Shown here piece after piece: positions 1,009 through 35,769 of a stretch of DNA of 35,769 nt. Positions within the stretch are counted from its first letter, which is position 1. Every line of letters starts with the position of its first letter. Below the pieces are notes generated by a model. That model ran no database searches and was not told where the DNA came from. It worked only from the letters and a program-made list of their open reading frames with translations. This DNA is from Rubrivivax sp. Lineage in GTDB: Bacteria > Pseudomonadota > Gammaproteobacteria > Burkholderiales > Burkholderiaceae_C. Where the stretch lies: NCBI GenBank assembly GCA_016790435.1, contig JAEUPE010000094.1, positions 1 through 35,769 of the forward strand. Reading direction: 5' to 3'. The position numbers and the translations under genes are program-made.

Positions 1009-1652
1009 CGGACCTGCGGCGGCTCTCGATGCGGGTTCTCGCGCTTGCGCTTTGCGGCCTTCCGCTCGTCGGCGCGGCCGCCGGCAACGACGCGGAGGTG
1101 CGGCGCATGATCGAGTCGCTCCGGCCGGCGCCTCAGGCGGCCCCTGCCGCCGCGGTGACGCCCGCGGGCCCGGCCCCGGCCGGCCGCACGCGCAACCTCG
1201 TCATCGAGCCGGCCGCCTCACCGGCCGCGGGCGCGACGGCCTCTCCCACGGCGGCGGCCCCGAACCATTCCGCACCGAGTCCCGTGACCGCCACGACCGC
1301 GGCGACACCCGCCGGCACCGGCCTCTCGCTGGCCATCGCCTTCGAGCCCAATTCGGCGCAGTTGCACCCGGACAGCGGCGCAACGCTCGGTGCGCTCGTG
1401 GCGGCCATGCTCTCGTCGGAGTTGCGCACGCGCCGTTTTGTCATCGAGGGCCACACCGACGCCACGGGAAGCCCGGCGCAGAACCTGCGCCTGTCGCGCG
1501 AGCGTGCCGAACAGGTTCGCCTGTTCCTGGTGACGCTGGGTGTCGATGGCGAGCGCCTGCGTGCCGTCGGCAAGGGCGCCAGCGACCCCGTGAACGCGCG
1601 CGACCCGCGCTCGCCCGAGAACCGCCGCGTGCGCGTGGTCGCCTTGCCCTGA
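1005..1652 (+). CDS. OmpA-family C-terminal-domain protein
   Basis: A 215-residue exported protein starting at GTG 1005, inside the stop of the preceding gene. Residues 1-26 form a signal peptide (Arg residues, then VLALALCGLPLVGAAAG). Residues 40-105 are a low-complexity Ala/Pro/Thr linker. Residues 107-215 are an OmpA C-terminal (peptidoglycan-binding) domain: strand AIAFEPNSAQL, then the signature EGHTDATGS around G149-H150-T151-D152, LSRERAEQVRLFL, and the closing NRRVRVV. D152 and the Arg near 208 correspond to the residues that bind diaminopimelate in this family. The protein probably sits in the periplasm and touches the cell wall. It lacks a beta-barrel and a lipobox, so how it is anchored is unclear. 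Its partner is the unknown exported protein upstream. Confidence 0.9.
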   Translation: MTDLRRLSMRVLALALCGLPLVGAAAGNDAEVRRMIESLRPAPQAAPAAAVTPAGPAPAGRTRNLVIEPAASPAAGATASPTAAAPNHSAPSPVTATTAATPAGTGLSLAIAFEPNSAQLHPDSGATLGALVAAMLSSELRTRRFVIEGHTDATGSPAQNLRLSRERAEQVRLFLVTLGVDGERLRAVGKGASDPVNARDPRSPENRRVRVVALP

Positions 1653-1779
1653 GGGGCCGGCGGCATCCGCGGGCAGGCAGGGAGTCAGATCTCCTGGCCA
1701 CCACGCCCACGCCCACGCCGCACGCCGCACGCCGCGCCCGTGAGATTGTGCGCAACCGGTGCCCGCCTCGCGGCCCGGG

Positions 1780-1806
1780 GGAATAATGCAGCTCACTTCG
1801 CGTAAA
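1780..1806 (+). promoter_or_regulatory. candidate ECF-type promoter of the sigma/anti-sigma pair
   Basis: GGAAT at 1780-1784 is followed 16 bases later by CGTAAA (1801-1806). ECF sigma factors often recognise GGAAC/T, 16-17 bases, CGT or TCT. Transcription would then begin around 1811-1814, right at the GTG start of the sigma gene, giving a leaderless autoregulated mRNA. No Shine-Dalgarno sequence precedes this GTG, which fits. The match is by eye only. Confidence 0.35.
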
Positions 1807-1813
1807 CCTCATC

Positions 1814-2347
1814 GTGGATGCTCCACCGGTCTTCCGCCAGCGGTTGCTTGACGCCATCCCGCGACTGCGCCGCTACTCGCGTTCGCTGACGCACGAGTCG
1901 AACGAGGCTGACGACCTGACGCAGCAGACGCTGGAGCGCGCGCTCGCGCACTGGCGGCAGTTCGATCCCGAGCGCGACATGCTGGTCTGGCTGCTGTCGA
2001 TTGCGCACAACGCCTTCCTCGACGGACGCCGACGCGATGCAAGGATGCAGTTCTCCGACCCCACCGACCTGCAGCGGACCATGGATGGCGAGGGCGGCAG
2101 CCCCGGCACCGACGTCGGCCTGCGCATGGACCTGGTGGCCGCGCTGGCACGCCTGTCGCCGGAGCAGCGCGAGCCGCTCGTGCTCGTGTGCGTGGAACAA
2201 CTGAGTTATGCCGAGGTGGCCGAGACGCTGCGCATCCCCATCGGCACGGTGATGTCGCGCGTGTGCCGCGCTCGCCAGGTGCTGCGCCGCTTCCTCGAAG
2301 GCCCGGTTCGGAGCGAGGGGCCGGCGGCCTTGCGTCGGGTGGTGTGA
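1814..2347 (+). CDS. RNA polymerase ECF sigma factor (sigma-70 family)
   Basis: A 177-residue sigma factor that directs RNA polymerase to a small regulon. Region 2 covers about residues 10-75 (LTHESNEADDLTQQTLERAL, then WLLSIAHNAFLD for core binding and -10 recognition). Region 4 covers about 110-165 (LSPEQREPLVLVCVEQLSY, then the helix-turn-helix EVAETLRIPIGTVMSRVCRA). There is no region 1 or 3, as is normal for ECF factors. The start is GTG: an in-frame stop at 1784-1786 prevents upstream extension, and no other start lies between. The next gene, a membrane anti-sigma factor, begins five bases after the stop, so the pair is an operon. The stress or signal sensed is not visible. Confidence 0.93.
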   Translation: MDAPPVFRQRLLDAIPRLRRYSRSLTHESNEADDLTQQTLERALAHWRQFDPERDMLVWLLSIAHNAFLDGRRRDARMQFSDPTDLQRTMDGEGGSPGTDVGLRMDLVAALARLSPEQREPLVLVCVEQLSYAEVAETLRIPIGTVMSRVCRARQVLRRFLEGPVRSEGPAALRRVV

Positions 2348-2352
2348 AGACC

Positions 2353-3351
2353 ATGCAGACGCCCCGCTATTCCGAAGAAGAGCTCAGCGCCTGGGTCGAC
2401 GGCGAGGGCAGTTCCGCCGAGCGCGCCGAGATCGAGGCTTGGCTGCGCGCCCACCCGAACGAAGCGGCGCGCGTGCTGGCCTGGGCGGGCGATCGCGATG
2501 CGCTGCATGCAGCCTTCGCTTCGGTGGTGCGCGAGCCGGTGCCTGCGCGCCTGGCCGAGGTTGTCTGGCAGCGGTACGGTGTCGCGGCCACAGGCACTGT
2601 CGGCGCACGCGCAGACACTGCCGCCGGTGGCGCCGGAGTTGCCGCGGGCGCCGACGGGCCGGCGCGGGGGCCGATGTCGCCGGGCTTGTCACGCTGGCCC
2701 GCATGGGGCCTGGCTGCCGCAGCCGGCGCGCTCTTCTTGCTCGGTGGCGCGGTGGGCGGGGCGCTCTCCTGGCAGTGGCAGGAGAGGACGGCGCTGGCGC
2801 GCGCCCGCTCGCCGGCCGGTGCCGTCGCGTCGGCACAGGCGTCCCAGGGGTGGCTGCAGCGCGCGGCCTTCGCCCACAGCGTCTACACCCCCGAACCGCG
2901 CCACGCTGTCGAGGTGAAGGCGCAGGAAGAGCACCTCGCGCGATGGCTCACACGCCGCATCGAAGCGCCGGTGAAGCTGTTCGACCTGCGCGCGATGGGT
3001 TTCGAGCTCGTCGGCGGTCGCCTGCTGCCCGACGGGCCGGGCAAGAGCGCGCAGTTGATGTACCAGGACGCTGACGGCAAGCGCGCCACCGTCTACCTGC
3101 GCAAGCCCGAGCCCGGCACGGACACCGCCTTCCGCTACGAGCAGCAGGGCAAGCTCGGCATGTTCTACTGGGTCGACGACAAGACCGGCTTCGCCTTGGT
3201 CGGCGAGTTGCCGAAGGAGCGCCTGCTGGCCATGGCCAAGTCGATCTATGACCAGGACGCCACGCTGCCGGCGCCTTTGCTCACGCCGCCCGCTTCGGCG
3301 GCGGCCGCGGCGCCGGGCCAGCCAACCGGCGCTTCGGCGCCGGCCAGGTAG
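2353..3351 (+). CDS. membrane-anchored anti-sigma factor
   Basis: A 332-residue protein with a cytoplasmic N-terminal helical domain (SEEELSAWVDGE, about residues 7-75), a Gly/Ala linker, one transmembrane helix at about 117-140 (WPAWGLAAAAGALFLLGGAV) and a periplasmic C-terminal domain (about 160-315). This is the layout of RsiW/ChrR-like and related anti-sigma factors that hold the cognate ECF factor at the membrane. The periplasmic domain contains strands such as FDLRAMGFELVGGRLL and RATVYLRKP and ends with a Pro/Ala tail; in other systems this part senses the signal or is cut by proteases. The ATG at 2353 follows the sigma factor stop by five bases. The family is assigned by architecture; the signal is unknown. 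Confidence 0.85.
   Translation: MQTPRYSEEELSAWVDGEGSSAERAEIEAWLRAHPNEAARVLAWAGDRDALHAAFASVVREPVPARLAEVVWQRYGVAATGTVGARADTAAGGAGVAAGADGPARGPMSPGLSRWPAWGLAAAAGALFLLGGAVGGALSWQWQERTALARARSPAGAVASAQASQGWLQRAAFAHSVYTPEPRHAVEVKAQEEHLARWLTRRIEAPVKLFDLRAMGFELVGGRLLPDGPGKSAQLMYQDADGKRATVYLRKPEPGTDTAFRYEQQGKLGMFYWVDDKTGFALVGELPKERLLAMAKSIYDQDATLPAPLLTPPASAAAAAPGQPTGASAPAR
3326..3343 (+). terminator. UUCG-loop hairpin at the end of the anti-sigma gene
   Basis: Perfect 7-bp stem CCGGCGC / GCGCCGG closed by a TTCG tetraloop, located within the last codons before the stop at 3349-3351. C(UUCG)G loops are very stable in RNA. There is no U-tract, so the role as terminator or 3'-end stabiliser is inferred. 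Confidence 0.35.
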
Positions 3352-3391
3352 GTCCGGGCCGCACGGCGGCGGCGCGCGCGAGCGCGCTGCC

Positions 3392-3397
3392 TAGAAT
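3392..3397 (+). promoter_or_regulatory. -10 box TAGAAT six bases before the ampG start
   Basis: TAGAAT (5 of 6 to TATAAT) is followed by exactly six bases and then the ATG at 3404. This predicts transcription starting at or next to the A of the start codon. No convincing -35 hexamer lies 16-18 bases upstream, and no Shine-Dalgarno precedes the ATG. Confidence 0.45.
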
Positions 3398-3403
3398 CGT
3401 TCG

Positions 3404-5011
3404 ATGTCCCCGTCGCTGCCGCGCTCCGGCATCACGCTCGCCGCGCTGCACCGTCTGGCCGCCGTCACGGTGCTCGGCTTTGCCTCGGGGCTGCCGCTGG
3501 CGCTCACCGGGCAGGCCCTGCAGGCTTGGCTCACGGTCGAGGGGCTCGATCTCGCGGCCATCGGCTTTCTCTCGATCGTCGGCCTGCCCTACACCTTCAA
3601 GTTCCTCTGGGCGCCGTTGATGGACCGCTTCGAATGCGTCGCCGCGCTCGGACGGCGACGCGGCTGGCTCGTGCTGACGCAGTTGGTTCTGGCGGCGCTG
3701 CTGTTGGCGCTGGCGGCCGCCTCGCCGAAGGATTCGTTGCGCGTCTTCGCGCTGCTGGCACTGGCGGTCGCTTTCGCCTCGGCCTCGCAGGACGTGGTCG
3801 TGGACGCCTATCGCACCGACCTGCTCGGCGCCGCCGAGCGCGGCCTCGGCGCCTCGCTGGGCGTGATGGGCTATCGGCTGGCGATGATCCTCTCCGGCGG
3901 CGTCGCGCTCATCTGGACCGACGCGCAACAGGGGGGAGGCTGGAGCTGGCCGGAGGTCTACCGCTTCATGGCCGGCGTCATGGTCGCGGCCGCCGTGGTC
4001 TCGCTGCTGCTCCTGCCGCGCCTGCCACGCCTGCCGCGAGCCGAGGTCGACGCATCCCCCGCCGCCGGAGGCGGCCGCGGCGCGGCGCGGCACGACCTGC
4101 TCGGCTTTCTCGCCGTGCTCGCTGCCGTGGCGTTCGGCGTCGTCGTCAGCGACCGTTTCGCGCCGGGCCTCGCCAAGGCCCTCGTGGGGCCATGGCTCGA
4201 GGGCAGCGCGCTGCCAGCGCCGCTGCGCCAGCGCTGGGTGGACCTGACGGCGCTGCTCATGGGCATCGCCTTCACGCTGCCGCTGGCGGCCTGGGTGGCG
4301 AGGCGTGTGCGCTTCGAGACGCTGCTGGCCGGCTTGTCGAGCTACTTCGCGATGCCGGGGGCGGTCGGCTTCCTCTTCTTCATCGTGCTCTACAAGCTGG
4401 GCGACGCCTTCGCCGGCTCGCTGATGACGGCCTTCCTGCTCAAGAGCATGGCGTACACCTCGGCCGAGGTCGGGGTGGTGAACAAGGTCATCGGGCTGTG
4501 GCTCACCATCGGCGGCGCCCTTGTCGGCGGGGCGATGATGCTCAAGCTCGGGTTGTGGCGCTCGCTCGTCATCTTCGGCGTGCTGCAGCTCCTGTCGAAC
4601 CTCGGTTTCTGGTGGTTGGCCGTGGGCGGCAAGGGCAGCCTCGGCGGCGCGCTGCTGCCCGCCTTCGACTGGGGCTTCGTCAAGCTCGCCGCGGCCACGC
4701 CCGTGGACGGCGCGCTGCTGATGGTGGTGGCGTTCGAGAACATCAGCGGCGGCATGGGCACCGCGGCCTTCGTCGCCTTCCTCATGAGCCTGTGCAACCA
4801 GCGCTTCACGGCCACGCAGTACGCGCTGCTGTCGGCGTTTGCGTCCGTGGGCCGGGTGTGGGTCGGGCCGCTGGCCGGGGTGCTGGCCGAGAGCATCGGC
4901 TGGCCGGACTTCTTCCTGCTCAGCACGCTGTTCGCCTTGCCGGCGCTGCTGATGCTCTGGTGGCAGCGGGCGCCGATGCGGGCGCTGGAGGCGGCCCCTT
5001 CGGCGGCGTGA
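3404..5011 (+). CDS. ampG: AmpG-like muropeptide permease (major facilitator superfamily)
   Basis: A 535-residue inner-membrane transporter with about 12-14 hydrophobic segments. The N-terminus (GFASGLPLALTGQALQAWL, then LPYTFKFLWAPLMDRF) is characteristic of AmpG, which imports GlcNAc-anhydroMurNAc peptides released during cell-wall turnover for recycling. The loop DVVVDAYRTD and the charged stretch around LGRRRGW fit MFS transporters of this group. E. coli AmpG has 491 residues; the extra length lies mainly in a cytoplasmic loop near residues 205-225 and in the second half. Substrate specificity is by family, not proven. A D-Ala-D-Ala dipeptidase gene 3 kb downstream is consistent with a cell-wall recycling theme. 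Confidence 0.88.
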   Translation: MSPSLPRSGITLAALHRLAAVTVLGFASGLPLALTGQALQAWLTVEGLDLAAIGFLSIVGLPYTFKFLWAPLMDRFECVAALGRRRGWLVLTQLVLAALLLALAAASPKDSLRVFALLALAVAFASASQDVVVDAYRTDLLGAAERGLGASLGVMGYRLAMILSGGVALIWTDAQQGGGWSWPEVYRFMAGVMVAAAVVSLLLLPRLPRLPRAEVDASPAAGGGRGAARHDLLGFLAVLAAVAFGVVVSDRFAPGLAKALVGPWLEGSALPAPLRQRWVDLTALLMGIAFTLPLAAWVARRVRFETLLAGLSSYFAMPGAVGFLFFIVLYKLGDAFAGSLMTAFLLKSMAYTSAEVGVVNKVIGLWLTIGGALVGGAMMLKLGLWRSLVIFGVLQLLSNLGFWWLAVGGKGSLGGALLPAFDWGFVKLAAATPVDGALLMVVAFENISGGMGTAAFVAFLMSLCNQRFTATQYALLSAFASVGRVWVGPLAGVLAESIGWPDFFLLSTLFALPALLMLWWQRAPMRALEAAPSAA

Positions 5012-5142
5012 CCCACCCCACCGGGCGATCTCGTACCTCAGCAACTCCGGGATCGGGATCGCGTGCGAGGCTGGGGGAGCGCCAGGGCGGGAGACCGGGG
5101 GCGAGGCGCCCTTGCGGGGCCCGGGGTCTGGCCCCAGCTACC

Positions 5143-5148
5143 TAGAAT
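5143..5148 (+). promoter_or_regulatory. -10-like box TAGAAT upstream of the M48 protease gene
   Basis: CCTAGAAT repeats the octamer seen before ampG, here 30 bases before the ATG at 5179, so a short leader would remain. A GC hairpin (GGGGCC / GGCCCC, 5116-5135) lies just before it and may end the ampG transcript. Confidence 0.35.
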
Positions 5149-5178
5149 GGATTTGACCCTCGAGCCACCGCCCGCACC

Positions 5179-6099
5179 ATGAGCCCCGAGCTGTCCACGC
5201 CGACTCCCGCACACGCCTTGCCGACCGGGCCGGTCTGCGCCTGCGCGGGTCACGGTGTGCTGCGGCGTCGTTTGTTCACCGGCCTGCTGGCGGGCGCGGC
5301 GGCGCCGCTGCTCGGCCTCGGTGGCAATGCTTCCGCAGCCGACCCCGAATGCAAGCGCTCGCGCCTGGCCGGCGCGGTGCCGGCCGAGACGGTGGAGGGT
5401 GCGGCACGGCAGCAGTACGTGCAGTTGATGCGCGAGGCGCAGGGCAAGAACGCGCTGGCGCCGGCCGACGACCCGCAATTGCAGCGCCTGCGCTACATCG
5501 CCGCGCGCATGATCCCGCTCGCGCCCGCCTGCAACGAGCGCGCGCGCGAGTGGAAGTGGGAGGTGCAGCTGCTGCGCAGCAATGCACTCAACGCCTTCTG
5601 CATGCCCGGAGGCAAGATCGCCTTCTTCAGCGGCATCCTTTCGCGCCTCAAGCTCAGCGACGACGAGGTGGCGATGATCATGGGCCACGAGGCGGCGCAC
5701 GCGCTGCTCGAGCACGCGCGTGAGCGCATGGCCAAGAGCACCGGCACGAACTTCGGCCTGCGGTTGCTGGCGGCGGTGTTCGGCCTGGGCAACCTGGGCG
5801 ACATGGCAGCGCAGGGTTTGTCGCAGCTGGCCAGCCTCAAGTTCAGCCGCGACGACGAGAGCGAGGCCGATGCGCTCGGCCTCGTGCTCGCTGCGCGGGC
5901 CGGCTACGACCCGCGTGCCGGCGTCTCGTTGTGGCAGAAGATGGGCGCGGCCAATGGCGGCAAGGCGCCGCCGGCCTGGCTTTCGACCCACCCGGCCGGG
6001 CCGGAGCGGGTCAAGGAGATCGAGCAGCGGTTGCCGCGCGCGCTGCCCGAATTCCAGCGCGCCGCGCAGCCCGACCGGCGCTTTCCGGTCGCTGCCTAG
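5179..6099 (+). CDS. secreted M48-family zinc metalloprotease
   Basis: A 306-residue exported peptidase. The N-terminus has a twin-arginine-type signal (RRRLFTGLLAGA, with RRxF spacing) and a hydrophobic stretch ending at about residue 53 (GNASAAD). The zinc site is H170-E171-x-x-H174 in GHEAAHALLEH, with the third ligand probably E229 in ESEADALG. These are the M48 hallmarks of BepA/LoiP/Oma1-like proteases. After the signal there are no transmembrane segments, so it should act in the periplasm, probably in envelope protein quality control as for BepA and LoiP. There is no TPR domain as in BepA, so it is closer to the short LoiP/YcaL type. It faces the Crp-type regulator gene tail to tail. 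Confidence 0.88.
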   Translation: MSPELSTPTPAHALPTGPVCACAGHGVLRRRLFTGLLAGAAAPLLGLGGNASAADPECKRSRLAGAVPAETVEGAARQQYVQLMREAQGKNALAPADDPQLQRLRYIAARMIPLAPACNERAREWKWEVQLLRSNALNAFCMPGGKIAFFSGILSRLKLSDDEVAMIMGHEAAHALLEHARERMAKSTGTNFGLRLLAAVFGLGNLGDMAAQGLSQLASLKFSRDDESEADALGLVLAARAGYDPRAGVSLWQKMGAANGGKAPPAWLSTHPAGPERVKEIEQRLPRALPEFQRAAQPDRRFPVAA

Positions 6100-6112
6100 T
6101 GGGGGCTAGTTC

Positions 6113-6787
6113 TCACCACTTGGCCGGCATCGGCCGAAGCAGGCGCAGATGGCGCCGCCCGCTCTCGACGTAGCCGCCGGTCTCGAGGTCCTTGACGACG
6201 CGGCTCACCATCTCGCGGCTGCAGCCGATGACGCGCGAGATCTCCAGGTGCGTGGGTGCCGGTTCCAGCGTGGCCGTGCCGTCGGCGGCAGGCACCGCGT
6301 GCGCCTCGAGAAAGGCCTTGAGCCGGCCGTACACGTCGTTCAGCGCGATCTGGCGCAGGCTCAACGTGGCGTGGCGGGCGCGGCGGATCACCTTCGAAAG
6401 CAGTTCGAAGGCGAACTGCGGATGCTCGGCGAGGTGCGCTTCGAGCGTGCGGCGGGTCACCATGACCACGACGCCCGGCTCGACCACCTCGACGTCGGCC
6501 GAGCGTGGGCCGCCGTCCAGGCTCATCTCGCCGACATACTCGCCCGGGCCGTAGGTGGCGTAGGTGACCTCGCGGTCGTCTGCGCCCACGCTGTAGGCCC
6601 GCAACCGTCCCTGCACGACGATGTAGAGGCTGTCGCCGAGCTCGTCCTCGGTGATGAGGCGGGTGCCTTTGCGCACGCGGCGTGCTTCGCCACGCAGCGC
6701 GAGTGCGCGCAGGCTGTCGGTGAAAGGCGCCTGCTCGATGAGCGAGGCGGGGTCGGTCGGAAGGGCTCTAGTGGTCTTCTTGGGCAT
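6113..6787 (-). CDS. Crp/Fnr-family transcriptional regulator
   Basis: A 224-residue regulator with an N-terminal cyclic-nucleotide-binding-like beta-roll (about residues 20-140) and a C-terminal Crp-type winged helix (about 145-222). The recognition helix region is LEISRVIGCSREMVSRVVKDL at about 177-197, where CSREMVSRV closely matches the DNA-contacting helix of Crp. The beta-roll holds GPGEYVGEMSLDGGPRSADV, similar to the cAMP pocket of Crp (GE.SL...RSA), so a cyclic nucleotide ligand is possible. There is no Fnr-type N-terminal cysteine cluster. A strong hairpin lies directly upstream, between this gene and the LuxR-type gene. Targets are unknown. Confidence 0.92.
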   Translation of the reverse strand: MPKKTTRALPTDPASLIEQAPFTDSLRALALRGEARRVRKGTRLITEDELGDSLYIVVQGRLRAYSVGADDREVTYATYGPGEYVGEMSLDGGPRSADVEVVEPGVVVMVTRRTLEAHLAEHPQFAFELLSKVIRRARHATLSLRQIALNDVYGRLKAFLEAHAVPAADGTATLEPAPTHLEISRVIGCSREMVSRVVKDLETGGYVESGRRHLRLLRPMPAKW

Positions 6788-6797
6788 TGTCGGCTGC

Positions 6798-6843
6798 GCC
6801 CTGCGGCCCCTCGCGAACCTCTGTCGCGAGCGGGCCGCAGGGC
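6798..6843 (-). terminator. 19-bp hairpin between two regulator genes
   Basis: The arms GCCCTGCGGCCC-CTCGCGA and TCGCGAG-CGGGCCGCAGGGC pair over about 19 bp with one bulged base and a 7-base loop. On the minus strand it lies between the stop of the LuxR-type gene (6920) and the start of the Crp-type gene (6787), eleven bases from that start. It could end the upstream transcript or shape the 5' end of the downstream one. There is no U-run. Confidence 0.5.
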
Positions 6844-6919
6844 GGACCGATCTTAGCTGGCGGTGCTTGCCGCCTGCTTTTCCCCCGAAGTCTTGCCCGT
6901 GTCGCGGTTGGCGTTTGCG

Positions 6920-8033: not shown

Positions 8034-8669
8034 GTGCCGTCCCGAACCCGCATCCGCGTCGAAGAGATCGCCCGCCACGCGCAATTCAGCCGCCTCGCCG
8101 AGCTGAGCGCCCAAGGCGGCATCGTGGTCGATCTGCGGTACGCGGGCACCAACAACTTCGCCGGTCGCTGCCTCTATGGCGACCTCGACTGCGCCTGGTT
8201 GCGCACCGAGGCCGCCGCCGGCTTGGCCGAATCAGCCCGCTGGCTGGCCGCGCAACGCCCGGGCTGGCGGCTGCTCGTGCTCGATGCGCTGCGCCCGCAG
8301 CGCGTGCAGGAGGCCATCTGGGCCGATGTCGTGGGCACGCCCGACGAAGCCTACTTCGCCAACCCGGCGGCCGGCTCGATGCACAGCTACGGCATGGCGG
8401 TGGACGTGACCCTGCTCGACCCGCGCGGCCGCGAAGCCGGTGCCGCCGAGATGGGCAGCGGCTTCGACGAGATGAGCGAGGCCTCGCACCCGGCCCTGCA
8501 CGCCGCGCACCTCGCCACTGGGCGCCTCAGCGCGGCCCAGGTGGCCCTGCGCGGGTTGCTGCACCAGGCGATGGCCGCGGGCGGGTTTGCCGGCATTTCC
8601 ACCGAGTGGTGGCACTTCGACCATGGCGCGCGCGAACACGTGCGGCGGGAGTTCCCCCTCGTCGAGTGA
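8034..8669 (+). CDS. ddpX: D-alanyl-D-alanine dipeptidase (VanX/DdpX type, peptidase M15D)
   Basis: A 211-residue zinc enzyme predicted to hydrolyse D-Ala-D-Ala. The metal ligands are visible as H117 and D124 in SMHSYGMAVD and H194 in the EWWH motif, with catalytic base E191; VanX has H116, D123, E181 and H184 in the same arrangement. The early motif VDLRYAGTNNF and the LVLDALRP segment (with its Arg) also match VanX. No signal peptide is seen with this start, so it is probably cytoplasmic and used for D-Ala-D-Ala recycling rather than glycopeptide resistance; no vanHA genes are nearby. An in-frame ATG at 7977 would add 19 Ala-rich residues, but the -10 box at 8022 argues for GTG 8034. Confidence 0.9.
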   Translation: MPSRTRIRVEEIARHAQFSRLAELSAQGGIVVDLRYAGTNNFAGRCLYGDLDCAWLRTEAAAGLAESARWLAAQRPGWRLLVLDALRPQRVQEAIWADVVGTPDEAYFANPAAGSMHSYGMAVDVTLLDPRGREAGAAEMGSGFDEMSEASHPALHAAHLATGRLSAAQVALRGLLHQAMAAGGFAGISTEWWHFDHGAREHVRREFPLVE

Positions 8670-8678
8670 GCGGCGGCC

Positions 8679-9848
8679 CTACCAGGCGACACGCGGTACG
8701 CAGTCGTTGCCGGGGTTCGAGGCCGATTCGCGACAGGTCTGCAGCGTGCGCGCCAACCGCTCCTGCGTCGGGCGCAGGAACTCGTACTCGCGCTGTCCTC
8801 GGCACTGCCGTTCGAGCAGTGCCATCTGCTCCGTGAGCATGTACATCTCCACCTGCTGGAAGGCGAGACGATCGGCCTGCGAGGGGCGACGGCGCTGGAT
8901 CCCCTCGAAGCGCTCTTCCATGCGGCGCAGCGAGGCCTTGCAGTCGCCGGTGCCACCGGTGCTGCCGGCACCGTTCTCCGTGCGGTTGCCGGGCGCCGCA
9001 GCGGCAGGTGCTGCGGCGGCCGCCACCCGCACCACCGGCGGGGCGGAAGAAGTCGCGCTGGCGTCCGGAACGTCGGCTGCCGCGGCCACCAGGGCCTGCT
9101 GCGGCGTCAGCGTGCTGCCCGGCAGCGTCTGCGGGCAGGGCGGCATGTCGAGCGCGCGCAGGCTCTGTTGCGCGGCGGTCAGGCCGAGCCGCTGCGCGTC
9201 CACGAGCAGCACCTCGCGGCGTTGCGCCCACTCCTGGCGGACGAGCTCACAGGCCTGAACGGCCTCGATCGCCTCGCGGCAGGGGCCATCACGCTCCGGG
9301 CCGGGGCGAGCGAGGCCGCAGGCCTCGAGCTTGATCTCCGCCTGCCGGTGTGCGTCGGCCGGCACGCGCGCGCGCTCCTGCTGCTCCACGAGGCGGCGCA
9401 AGGCGGCCTCGAACTGGGCCGTGCGGGTCGGCCCGGCGGCGGTCTCGCCCGAGGCGTCTTCGAGGCTGAGGAAGTTGCGGCACAGCGCGCGGTTGAAGTC
9501 GGTCGTGCAACTCGCCAGCCCGGTGGCCGGTACGCCCGCCTCGATGAGCGTACGGCGCAGGACGCTGTCGTCCACCCGGCTGCCATTGTTGGCCAGCAGC
9601 TGCATGAAGGTCTGCAACGCCGGGCAACTGTCGACGATGCGGACGACCGCGCGGCAACCACCGTGGGCCTCGCACTGCTTCAGTTTCGCCGCCGGCGCGG
9701 CGGGCAGCTCGGCGCGGCATTGCGCCATCGACGTCTGCGCGCGCGCGGGGGCGACCGTGCCGAGACTCGCCAGGAGTGCGAGCAGGGTCATGCCTTGCAC
9801 AGGCAAGAACCCTGACCCGACCCGCCTCCACCAACCGCTTGACCCCAT
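8679..9848 (-). CDS. exported protein of unknown function, Cys-containing, coiled-coil-prone
   Basis: About 389 residues; I do not recognise a family. From ATG 9848 the N-terminus reads as a long signal sequence (WWRRVGSGF, then MTLLALLASLGTVAPARA, cleavage likely before QTS). The mature protein contains many Cys residues in pairs (AQCRAELP, KLKQCEAHGGC, SCPALQ, LEACGL, GPCREA), which suggests periplasmic disulphides. It also has long Glu/Arg/Gln-rich helical stretches (for example AQFEAALRRLVEQQERAR) that could form coiled coils. A Pro/Ala/Thr linker separates two such regions. Alternative starts are 9857 and 9791. The gene stands alone, end to end with the dipeptidase gene (9-bp gap), and is followed upstream by another exported protein gene on the same strand. 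Confidence 0.7.
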   Translation of the reverse strand: MGSSGWWRRVGSGFLPVQGMTLLALLASLGTVAPARAQTSMAQCRAELPAAPAAKLKQCEAHGGCRAVVRIVDSCPALQTFMQLLANNGSRVDDSVLRRTLIEAGVPATGLASCTTDFNRALCRNFLSLEDASGETAAGPTRTAQFEAALRRLVEQQERARVPADAHRQAEIKLEACGLARPGPERDGPCREAIEAVQACELVRQEWAQRREVLLVDAQRLGLTAAQQSLRALDMPPCPQTLPGSTLTPQQALVAAAADVPDASATSSAPPVVRVAAAAAPAAAAPGNRTENGAGSTGGTGDCKASLRRMEERFEGIQRRRPSQADRLAFQQVEMYMLTEQMALLERQCRGQREYEFLRPTQERLARTLQTCRESASNPGNDCVPRVAW

Positions 9849-30889: not shown

Positions 30890-31867
30890 TCAACGTTCCT
30901 TGACGTACGGCCGCCCGAGCGCCTTGGGCGCCACTGCCTGGCCGATGAACCCGGCCAGCAGCACCACCGTCAGCACATAGGGCAGCGCCTGGATCGCCTG
31001 CACCGGCACCTGCCCGCCGCCCCAGGTGGCGGGCAGTGTGACGCCCTGCAGACGGATGCTCACCGCGTCGAGGAAGCCGAACAGCAGGCAGGCCCACAGT
31101 GCGCCCACCGGGTGCCACTTGCCGAAGATCATCGCCGCCAGGGCCATGTAGCCGCGCCCGGCCGTCATGTTCGGGATGAAGCTCGGGTTCATCGCCAGCA
31201 CGAGGTAGCTGCCGGCCAGCGAGCACAGCACGCCGTTCAGCGCCAGCGCCTGGTAGCGCAGCCCCTTCACCGAAACGCCCGCGGCGTCGACCATGTTCGG
31301 GTTCTCGCCCGTGGCGCGCAGGCGCAGGCCGAAGCGCGTGCGGTAGAGCAGCCACCACACGGCGGCCACGGCGACGAGCGCTCCGTAGACGAAGGCGTTG
31401 TGGCCGAAGAGCGCCAGCGCGAGCGTGGGGCCGACGCCGGGAATCTCGCGCACCCAGGCCGCGAGGCCGGCGAAGAGCGGATGCAGCCGTACGGCCTCGG
31501 CCAGCGGCGGCGTCTGCCCGCCGAGGCTGAACCAGGCGATGCCGAGCACCACCGTCAGGCCGGCGGCCATCATCGTGATGGCCACGCCGAGCACCACCTG
31601 GTCGCCGCCGTGCGTGACGCAGGCATAACCGTGCAGCATCGACAGCGCCACGCCCACCGCAACGGCGGCGAGCAATGCCAGCGCCATCGAGCCGGTGGCC
31701 GCGCCGACGCTGGCGGTGGCGAAGGCCGTGAGCAGCATCTTGCCCTCGAGCCCGAGGTCGATGACACCGCTGCGCTCGCAGAGCACGCCGGCCAGCGCGC
31801 ACAGGATGAGCGGCACGCTCACGCGCAGCGTGCTCGCGACGAGGGTGCCGATGAGGACGTCGTCCAT
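30890..31867 (-). CDS. nucleoside ABC transporter permease (second permease)
   Basis: A 325-residue inner-membrane permease with about eight to nine helices, of the BPD_transp_2 (RbsC/LivH-like) fold. Segments CERSGVIDLGLEGKMLLTAF, RTRFGLRLRATGENPNMVDAAG and NPSFIPNMTAGRGYMALAAM are conserved in bacterial nucleoside and BMP-linked importers (YufQ/NupQ-like). ATG 31867 is preferred; it begins four bases after the stop of the first permease, with GGTGAG nearby. A TTG at 31870 is the only other candidate. It pairs with the other permease to form the channel. Confidence 0.92.
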   Translation of the reverse strand: MDDVLIGTLVASTLRVSVPLILCALAGVLCERSGVIDLGLEGKMLLTAFATASVGAATGSMALALLAAVAVGVALSMLHGYACVTHGGDQVVLGVAITMMAAGLTVVLGIAWFSLGGQTPPLAEAVRLHPLFAGLAAWVREIPGVGPTLALALFGHNAFVYGALVAVAAVWWLLYRTRFGLRLRATGENPNMVDAAGVSVKGLRYQALALNGVLCSLAGSYLVLAMNPSFIPNMTAGRGYMALAAMIFGKWHPVGALWACLLFGFLDAVSIRLQGVTLPATWGGGQVPVQAIQALPYVLTVVLLAGFIGQAVAPKALGRPYVKER

Positions 31868-31871
31868 CAAC

Positions 31872-33005
31872 TCACCCCAGGCGGGCCGGTGCCGCCGCGG
31901 CCGACGTGCGGCGCGCGAAGAGCCCGACGAGCCGCGCCAGCCATGGCGCCGCCACCTGCGCCATGGCGCCGGCGAAGAGCACGATCAGCCCCTGCAGCAG
32001 GAACACCATGTCGCGGCTGAAGCCCTTGATCTCGAAGGCCAGCTCGGCGCCGCCCTGGTAGAGCGCGCCGAAGAGGACGGCGGCGAGCACGATGCCCACC
32101 GGGTGGTTGCGGCCGATGAGGCTGACGGCGATGCCGGTGAAGCCGGCGCCGGCGACGAAATCGCCGAGCAGCCGGCCGTGCACGCCGGCGATCTCGTTGA
32201 CGCCGACGAGCCCTGCAAGCGCGCCCGAGATCGCCATCGACAGCAGGATGAGCCGCGGCGGCCGGATGCCCGCATAGAGGGAGGCCTCGGGCGCGAACCC
32301 CACGGCGCGCAGCGCGTAGCCGGGCTGCGACTTCCACACCGTGAGGTACACCGCCACGGCCGCCGCGAGCGCCAGCAGCACGCTCAGGTTGAGCGGCGTG
32401 CGCGGCCACTCGATGCCGAGCTTCTCCATCACCTCGTGCATGCCGGGCACGCGCGCGCTCGCGGCGAAGGCGGCCGTCTCGGCGGCCATGTTGCCCGGCT
32501 CCTTGAGCACATTGACGAGCAGGTAGCCGAGCAGTGCTGCGGCGATGAAGTTGAACATGATCGTCGTGATGACGACGTGGCTGCCGCGCCAGGCCTGCAG
32601 CGCCGCCGGCACCGCCGCCCAGGCCATGCCGAAGAGCGCGGCCGAGAGCACGGTGATGGGCAGCATCAGCGCCATCGGCAGGTGCGGCCCGAGCCCGAGC
32701 GCCGCCAGGCCGACGCCGAGGCCGCCGAGCATCGCCTGCCCTTCGGCGCCGATGTTGAACAGGCCCCCGTGCAACGCCACGGCCACGGCGAGCCCGGTGA
32801 AGACGAAGGTGGTCGCGTAGTACAGCGTGTAGCTCAGGCCCGCCTTCGAGCCGAAGGCGCCCTTGACGAGCAGCGCCAGCACCTGCGCCGGCTGGAAGCC
32901 GACGATGAGCACGACGATGGCCGCCACCGCGAGCGCGAGCGCCAGGTTGACCGCCGGCAGCACGGCCACGTCCACCCAGCGCGGCAGCTCGACAGGCTGG
33001 CTCAT
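31872..33005 (-). CDS. nucleoside ABC transporter permease (first permease)
   Basis: A 377-residue inner-membrane permease of the BPD_transp_2 family, YufP/NupP-like. About ten helices are seen. GLFNIGAEGQAMLGGLG is the family hallmark, followed by WRGSHVVITTIMFNFIAAAL, TVWKSQPGYALRAVGFAPEA and GAGFTGIAVSLIGRNHPVGI. It starts 14 bases after the ATPase stop and ends four bases before the second permease, so the three are one operon. Confidence 0.93.
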   Translation of the reverse strand: MSQPVELPRWVDVAVLPAVNLALALAVAAIVVLIVGFQPAQVLALLVKGAFGSKAGLSYTLYYATTFVFTGLAVAVALHGGLFNIGAEGQAMLGGLGVGLAALGLGPHLPMALMLPITVLSAALFGMAWAAVPAALQAWRGSHVVITTIMFNFIAAALLGYLLVNVLKEPGNMAAETAAFAASARVPGMHEVMEKLGIEWPRTPLNLSVLLALAAAVAVYLTVWKSQPGYALRAVGFAPEASLYAGIRPPRLILLSMAISGALAGLVGVNEIAGVHGRLLGDFVAGAGFTGIAVSLIGRNHPVGIVLAAVLFGALYQGGAELAFEIKGFSRDMVFLLQGLIVLFAGAMAQVAAPWLARLVGLFARRTSAAAAPARLG

Positions 33006-33018
33006 CGGCGCGCCGCCC

Positions 33019-34584
<1,566 letters not shown>

Positions 34585-34626
34585 GTGGTTGACCTTCACC
34601 CGGCCGGGTCTCGCCCCGGCGGGCGA

Positions 34627-34658
34627 CCTACTTTCTTTGCTGGTGCAAAGAAAGTAGG
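34627..34658. repeat. perfect 14-bp hairpin in the ATPase-side palindrome arm
   Basis: CCTACTTTCTTTGC, loop TGGT, GCAAAGAAAGTAGG, then CAAAGAAAG. It would form a stable hairpin in DNA or RNA just upstream of the ATPase ribosome binding site. Confidence 0.9.
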
Positions 34659-34956
34659 CAAAGAAAGCACCTTGATGCTCGGATGCGATGGGCTCGCTAC
34701 GGATGCGGGCCTCAGTCTGGCCGGCGCGCTCCGGCCCCAAACACCAACGACGCAGCCGTGCGCTGCGACGTGCGCTCGGGAGTGCGGGACCGCCACCGCC
34801 ACCACCCGGCGCGCGCGCATCGGCGTTCCCGAACTCTCGAGCGCAGGCCGAGGCGGGGAACTCGATCGATGGTGTTTGGGGCCGGAGCGCGCCGGCCAAA
34901 TGGAGGCCCGCCTCCGAAGCGCACGAGCGCCGCAGGACATCCAGGTGCTTTCTTTG

Positions 34957-34988
34957 CCTACTTTCTTTGCACCAGCAAAGAAAGTAGG
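34957..34988. repeat. perfect 14-bp hairpin in the solute-binding-protein-side palindrome arm
   Basis: CCTACTTTCTTTGC, loop ACCA, GCAAAGAAAGTAGG, preceded by CTTTCTTTG. On the minus strand it lies about 85 bases after the stop of the solute-binding protein gene and could act as terminator or 3'-end stabiliser for that gene. Confidence 0.9.
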
Positions 34989-35072
34989 TCGGCTGCCGGG
35001 CCGAGACCCGGCCAGGTGCGAGTCAGCAATCGCTCACCACAAAGCACGGCCGTCAGGGCGAAGGGTCCGAAC

Positions 35073-35768
35073 TCACTTGCAGGCGTTGCCCACCATGTAG
35101 TCGATCACCTTGATCTTGCCCGCAATGATGTCGGCCTTCGCCAGGTCCACCTTCTTCTTCATGTCCGCCGAGACGAGCTTGGCGTTGTGCTCGTCGAGCG
35201 CATAGTCGACACCGCCTTCGGCCAGCCCGAGTGCCGTGACGCCCGGCTTCACGCCCTTGAAGGCGTTGTAGACGGCGACATCGACGCGCTTGACCATGCT
35301 CGTGAGCATGGTGCCCGGGTGCAGGTGGTTCTGGTTGCTGTCGACGCCGATGGCGAGCTTGCCCGCGTCCTTGGCCGCCTGGTATACGCCCACGCCGGTG
35401 CCGCCGGCCGCGGCGAAGACGACGTCCACGCCGCCGGCGAACTGGCTCTTGGCCAGCTCGGCGCCGCGCGCCGGGTCGTTCCACGCCGTCGGCGTCGTGC
35501 CGGTCATGTTCGCCGTCACCTGGATGCCCGGGTTCACGAACTTCGCGCCCTGCTCGAAGCCGCACTGGAACTTGCGGATGAGCGGGATGTCCATGCCGCC
35601 GACGAAGCCGACCTTGCCCGTCTTGCTCGCCATCGCGGCCATCATGCCGACGAGGAAGCTGCCCTCGTGCTCCTTGAAGACGATGCTCTGCACGTTGGGC
35701 AGCGGCACCACCGAGTCGATGATCGCGAAGCTGAGCTTCGGGAAGTCCTTGGCCACCTTCTCGGTGCT
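35073..35768 (-). CDS. BMP-family nucleoside solute-binding protein (partial, N-terminus outside window)
   Basis: The C-terminal 231 residues of a periplasmic or lipoprotein solute-binding protein of the BMP/Med (PnrA-like) family, which bind purine and pyrimidine nucleosides. Family segments are SIVFKEHEGSFLVGMMAAM, GKVGFVGGMDIPLIRKFQCG, VDVVFAAAGGTGVGVYQAA, GVDSNQNHLHPGTMLTSMVK and a final domain ending YMVGNACK. The Asp of GVDSNQ and the Phe/Gly-rich loop line the nucleoside site in PnrA. The gene continues past the right edge. It is first in the importer cluster, separated from the ATPase by the 412-bp palindrome; the usual gene order is binding protein, ATPase, permease, permease, as here. 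Confidence 0.93.
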   Translation of the reverse strand, partial: STEKVAKDFPKLSFAIIDSVVPLPNVQSIVFKEHEGSFLVGMMAAMASKTGKVGFVGGMDIPLIRKFQCGFEQGAKFVNPGIQVTANMTGTTPTAWNDPARGAELAKSQFAGGVDVVFAAAGGTGVGVYQAAKDAGKLAIGVDSNQNHLHPGTMLTSMVKRVDVAVYNAFKGVKPGVTALGLAEGGVDYALDEHNAKLVSADMKKKVDLAKADIIAGKIKVIDYMVGNACK

Positions 35769-35769
35769 G

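Follow-up and report, generated by a model that had tools for sequence, protein, structure and literature searches.

The locus considered here raises the question of what a 412-nucleotide palindrome is doing between two genes of an importer operon, and of how it came to be there. The sequence studied, referred to below as the window, is the forward strand of contig JAEUPE010000094.1 of Rubrivivax sp. (assembly GCA_016790435.1), positions 1-35,769, in its full length of 35,769 nucleotides; the host assembly is Rubrivivax-like, comprises 5.39 Mb in 302 contigs, and is 80.8% complete. A preliminary description of the operon as a nucleoside importer labeled its genes correctly, as encoding a Bmp/PnrA-like binding protein, an ABC ATPase, and two BPD_transp_2 permeases (Table 1). 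The codon model places the start of the ATPase gene at 34536, and the nearest ATG, at 34584-34582 on the minus strand, lies inside the left outer layer of the palindromic element. A search of Rfam over 34000-35769 gave a single match, which was below threshold and outside the element. The reading that we favor, and consider rather likely, is that this is a dispersed, non-autonomous element of the REP/BIME/MITE kind that is mobilized in trans, in which the hairpins of the arms are conserved, that acts as a barrier behind genes, and whose long mirror symmetry was mostly inherited with it.

The region had been described as a near-perfect palindrome of 412 bases. A palindrome is indeed present over 34602-35013, but its overall self-complementarity is about 79%, and only the outer arms are near-perfect (95% over 76 nt); the outer 71-nt arms are mismatched at exactly three positions, as reported, and each arm carries a perfect 14-bp hairpin, designated HP2. 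The inner blocks also mirror each other, but are only 79% alike. By repeat search, the outer arms extend over 88 nt (34590-34677 and 34938-35025, 91% complementary) and the inner arms over 100 nt (79% complementary). Because the copies described below have an extra outer layer in common, roughly 34 nt per side, the element is taken to span about 34568-35047, this limit being approximate. In each arm, HP1b, a GC-rich hairpin, is followed inward by a T-rich tract and then by HP2. The predicted RNA fold of the minus strand of 34570-35050 has an energy of −368.9 kcal/mol, compared with −217.8 ± 6.2 kcal/mol for 100 dinucleotide shuffles, none of which (0/100) reaches the native value.

Table 1. 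Positions of the element, its parts and the neighboring genes in the window, and of three gene-bearing elements in their own loci
Feature	Position	Strand	Basis or remark
Second permease gene, BPD_transp_2	30890-31867	-	gene calls, domain match
Permease gene, BPD_transp_2	31872-33005	-	domain match
ABC ATPase gene, counted from nearest ATG	33019-34584	-	gene calls, domain match, ATG position
Outer layer, left (approximate limit)	34568-34601		homology among copy flanks
Palindromic element core, dyad near 34807	34602-35013		sequence, repeat search, copy comparison
HP1b, left; GC-rich arm hairpin, T-rich tract inward, terminator-like	34611-34626	+	terminator listing, covariation
HP2, left; 14-bp arm hairpin	34627-34658	+	repeat search, covariation
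Inner arm, left	34695-34794		repeat search
Inner arm, right	34822-34921		repeat search
HP2, right; 14-bp arm hairpin	34957-34988	-	repeat search, covariation
HP1b, right; 68 nt past binding-protein stop codon	34989-35004	-	terminator listing, covariation
Outer layer, right (approximate limit)	35014-35047		homology among copy flanks
Binding-protein gene (Bmp/PnrA-like), cut by contig end	35073-35768	-	gene calls, domain match
L236 (G052): type IIG/MmeI-like restriction enzyme at dyad	1563-6873		half-palindromes about 230 nt
L237 (G052): PDC-S11 defence candidate at dyad	1603-3877		half-palindromes about 230 nt
L279 (G828): DUF5677 gene at dyad	1235-2783		half-palindromes 230 nt

That the element is one of a dispersed family built of arms in inverted pairs, as had been anticipated, is apparent from a BLAST search of the host assembly, which gave 80 matches, counting both strands, and at least 26 two-arm copies of 392-513 nt each; additional pieces lie near the ends of contigs C9, C19, C68, and C263. 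Arms near contig ends, seen in these and in several contigs of genome G828, look as if assemblies break inside palindromes. The host copies form subfamilies, the closest pair of inner arms being 95% alike, and HP2 occurs in two types, CTTTCTTTGC and CTTTCATTTG, which are combined as unlike types in the two arms of 4 of 17 aligned copies (16 from the host and one from G059). On contig C5, a doublet consists of outer layers and is nearly coreless. Outer layers, HP2 types, and cores are thus mixed between copies, with modules that alternate in orientation, as in BIMEs. In the complete genome G738, the cores of thirteen copies (L349-L361) are about 90% alike, but their outer layers are mainly of two kinds, and a copy may have the same kind on both sides or one of each, as though copies had exchanged ends.

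Comparison with relatives indicates that the element was inserted in the host lineage. The binding-protein gene is present in 79 named loci, of which 77 also have the ATPase gene; the element is absent from the gap between the two in all 77, so that the empty site expected of a mobile element was found throughout, and the distance from the binding-protein stop codon to a fixed point in the ATPase gene has a median of 68 nt in these loci versus about 524 nt in the host. Only three of the 77 gaps exceed 400 nt: two (L113 and L122) contain a gene for a LacI-type regulator, and in the third, Reyranella L158, the binding-protein gene is present twice, each time followed by an unrelated palindrome. 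Two Reyranella loci (L158, 4690-6570, and the gap of L135) have unrelated palindromes behind the same binding-protein gene. A target-site duplication was not found at the element, the relatives with an empty site being too diverged to define its ends.

The distribution of the element is patchy between species. The arm is detected at E ≤ 0.001, in many cases weakly, in 28 of 81 genomes of the genus, the host included, and below 1e-5, by reading of the matches, in 12 members besides the host; in the family, it is found at E ≤ 1e-5 in 131 of 399 genomes and 61 of 141 genera, in a survey that scored two candidates per genome and in which copy numbers are lower bounds. Among 369 genomes of the class, 16 contain the bare HP2 pattern, versus one for a reversed control. 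Six plasmid records contain the pattern (five from Caballeronia and one from Variovorax), none covering 80% of the query and two showing palindromes of 638 and 772 bp; phage records gave no match, and among viral contigs the hairpin pattern was present once, in one contig. Sixty arm loci were fetched, with partner detection covering elements up to about 10 kb. Fifty are compact, with a near partner and 245-798 nt between outer ends, the partners in L315 and L316 resting on 25 nt only; two of the remaining 10 have a far partner and eight have no partner in view, some of these stretches being cut by contig ends.

All 26 host copies are intergenic, 18 between co-directional and 8 between convergent genes, and none is in a divergent gap. 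In all sets combined, 91 elements have both neighbors in view, or 89 after two duplicates are dropped, and none of the 89 lies in a divergent gap, whereas 52 of the 245 background gaps are divergent (Fisher p = 2.6e-8); for the host alone the test gives p = 0.049, or 0.023 by gap length. It should be noted that these placements rest on genes predicted by a simple codon-usage caller trained on one window, the stretch studied here. The orientation of the element relative to transcription is near even (10 of 18).

The arms of the family allow the contributions of the short hairpins and of the long rod to be separated. In 164 distinct arms, 93.7% of HP2 pairs are standard versus 80.6% in shuffles, and two-sided, compensatory changes are found at all 14 of its pairs; for HP1b the corresponding values are 96.0 and 89.9%, and an alternative pairing, HP1a, is weaker (87.9 versus 85.9%). 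These contrasts with shuffles overstate covariation and are not to be read as probabilities, since similarity to the window arm was the criterion for gathering the arms, many of which are related to one another. In the long rod, 13 of 127 pairs show two-sided changes; 12 of these fall within the HP2-to-tail block, which differs between arm types, and the other lies just beside that block. The nearest relative of an inner arm is never its own mate (0/52). In a comparison of 25 of the 26 copies, C172 being left out, mates are more alike than random pairs in the outer segments and, more weakly, in segment 110-150, where 20 of 2000 random pairings score as high; in segments 76-110 and 150-190 they are not. 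Because HP2 and HP1b covary, the rod is nearly without covariation, and inner mates are never nearest to each other, it is the hairpins of the arms that appear to be conserved, and the long mirror symmetry looks to have been mostly inherited with the element. The suggestion that active correction keeps the arms nearly identical is therefore not supported for the inner region, where arm-to-arm correction or re-synthesis at each jump was rejected on the 0/52 result, and survives for the outer segments, in which the likeness of mates could reflect correction, shared descent, or exchange of ends.

The same data bear on the view that the element is a regulatory RNA, with selection acting on the long rod as transcribed, which would control or stabilize the mRNA. 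The extreme folding energy and the placement behind genes would fit such a role, but the sense strand shows no excess of G-U pairs (150 G-U versus 169 A-C in 18 copies, p = 0.31), the two-sided changes of the rod are confined to the HP2-to-tail block and one neighbor, the copies with unlike HP2 types break the rod at that point while keeping their local hairpins, and occurrence is patchy between species. We rejected the rod as the selected structure on the G-U result and the limited two-sided changes, and regard this explanation as highly improbable.

A role for the conserved hairpins in transcription is suggested by their position. In a pattern listing, HP1b followed by CCTACTTTCT forms a terminator-like site that is read inward from both ends of the element, with a GC stem and then an interrupted T run, resembling a weak intrinsic terminator as a pattern only; the pattern is not specific, given the break in the T tract and a total of five terminator-like sites listed in the region (0.7 expected), of which two are the HP1b sites. 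A transcript of the binding-protein gene would meet the right-arm HP1b as its first arm hairpin, 68 nt past the stop codon, from which lower levels of ATPase and permease mRNA are predicted. It is plausible, from the sequence, that the palindrome separates expression of the binding protein from that of the ATPase and permeases, and the element is probably a two-way 3′-end barrier. In the mechanism we propose, a dispersed, non-coding, non-autonomous intergenic element would have come to lie between the binding-protein gene and the ATPase gene by insertion in the host lineage; its paired arm hairpins would be the recognition target of a trans-acting DNA enzyme; copies would be retained only behind genes, since they would end or block transcripts that reach them from either side; and in this operon a partial barrier behind the binding-protein gene would lead to more binding-protein than transporter mRNA.

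The preliminary description proposed a REP-associated tyrosine transposase (RAYT, with a Y1 domain) as the enzyme that moves the element. This would make the element a REPIN or BIME whose RAYT gene has been lost or lies in sequence that the assembly lacks, and the inverted hairpin arms, mosaic layers, and 3′-end placement are as in REPs, in the part of the literature that we consulted (PMC3733652); a Y1 gene is also present in 13 of the 15 more distant genomes examined, all of them chosen as carriers of the bare HP2 pattern. Against it, a profile search (PF01797) found no Y1 transposase in the host assembly, which is 80.8% complete, or in 8 of the 12 other element-positive genus members tested. 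In a survey of a hand-chosen 62 of the 80 other genus members and the 15 distant genomes, Y1 and the element were not associated in the genus (4 of 13 element-positive genomes, including the host, versus 20 of 50 others), the arm was not found next to the Y1 gene in any of the 30 loci fetched, and the hairpins are without the unpaired GTAG tag. A RAYT is on this basis not supported as the mover, and we consider its involvement quite improbable.

MITEs are non-coding inverted-repeat elements, and the related mobile insertion cassettes carry a passenger gene and no transposase. A second possibility, which we judge unlikely, is that a classical DNA transposon has these arms as its terminal repeats and that the element is its MITE or mobile insertion cassette, with cargo in some copies. 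The occurrence of non-coding copies together with three that have a gene between half-palindromes and no transposase would accord with this, but no transposase element with these ends was present among the loci fetched, a target-site duplication was not found, and one of the cargo genes, PDC-S11, occurs in 11 other genomes without arms.

The three gene-bearing elements, which come from two relatives, have one gene each at the dyad, as in mobile insertion cassettes (L236, L237, and L279; Table 1); the window copy has no passenger gene. The PDC-S11 gene of L237 (PADLOC E 1.6e-158) encodes a NucS-like domain, and the cargo of L279 has a GC content of 53% versus 71% outside it; in two of the three cases the cargo resembles anti-phage defence genes. 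With a cargo-free copy from G052 (L235, dyad near 1800) as reference, the homology on the left side of L237 extends to 1798 and that on the right starts at 1787, the corresponding limits for L236 being 1810 and 1791; the matches fray at these points. The stretches upstream of the two G052 cargoes have no real likeness to each other. PDC-S11 is present in 11 of the 399 family genomes at 12 loci, two of which are pieces in one genome, and none of the 12 has arms or flanking inverted repeats within flanks of up to 1500 nt, which are shorter where a contig ends sooner. The idea of a carrier is weakened by this result, and a fixed partnership was rejected. Clear cases number three, versus about one hundred compact elements. 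Two further candidates were set aside: L346 was not counted, being an insertion of an IS30-like transposase gene (HTH_38, rve) that interrupts the right palindrome arm in G723 (about 2760-4115), and L305 is ambiguous (8040-9560 in G682): next to a half-palindrome, it has a PIN-domain gene and a small partner frame, flanked by 28-nt inverted repeats of their own. That the palindromes are mobile landing pads, at whose dyad single accessory genes, often for anti-phage defence, enter and then spread together with the palindrome, without a transposase of their own, is a speculative idea and probably incorrect; the cargo cases nevertheless raise the testable question of whether palindrome centers are entry points for defence genes.

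The favored reading, a trans-mobilized element with conserved arm hairpins, can be compared with several known systems. No description of the element was found in the literature searched, a search outside which most subscription journals fall. REPINs and BIMEs, in the portions of the reports consulted (PMC3116915, PMC3733652, PMC2817692), likewise have inverted hairpin units within a larger palindrome and are extragenic, located behind genes, mosaic, and multicopy, whereas the present element is about 400-800 bp with mirrored cores, is without an unpaired GTAG head, and has no RAYT tied to it. As in a REPIN, two inverted units are able to form one hairpin, but they are not GTAG REPs: in the alignment no arm has an unpaired GTAG head, the CTAC and GTAG of type I HP2 pairing with each other, type II arms have GTCAC/GTAAC in HP2, HP1 is without a GTAG-like head, and an unpaired CGTC-like end was not found in the aligned arms by reading. 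The element is therefore not classed as a REPIN, despite its REPIN-like architecture. The TIR dimers of the "TIRYT" transposases, which also occur away from a gene, and the double stem-loop TIRs of Pseudomonas are, as far as the consulted part of that report goes (PMC3733652), similar composite inverted arms with multiple stem-loops, but no tyrosine transposase was found between or beside the arms described here. The R0, R2, R6, and other intergenic repeats of P. fluorescens have inverted repeats around a variable core and a tail-to-tail bias and have been suggested to be terminators or MITEs; the families listed (PMC2718517) measure 50-352 bp and their inverted repeats 11-43 bp, sizes in which the present element differs from them. 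With MITEs and mobile insertion cassettes, it shares a non-coding inverted-repeat form and, in some copies, a passenger gene, but it differs in that no parent insertion sequence was found among the loci fetched, that no target-site duplication was found, and that the passenger lies at the dyad of a full palindrome. If the favored reading is right, hairpin-armed palindromes may set transcript ends and be moved by an enzyme not yet named, and they form a class, without a description that we could find, that is scattered over many genera of the family. The palindrome in the importer operon is a copy of a widespread hairpin-armed element for which no mover was found and which is alike in kind to REP, BIME, and MITE elements.
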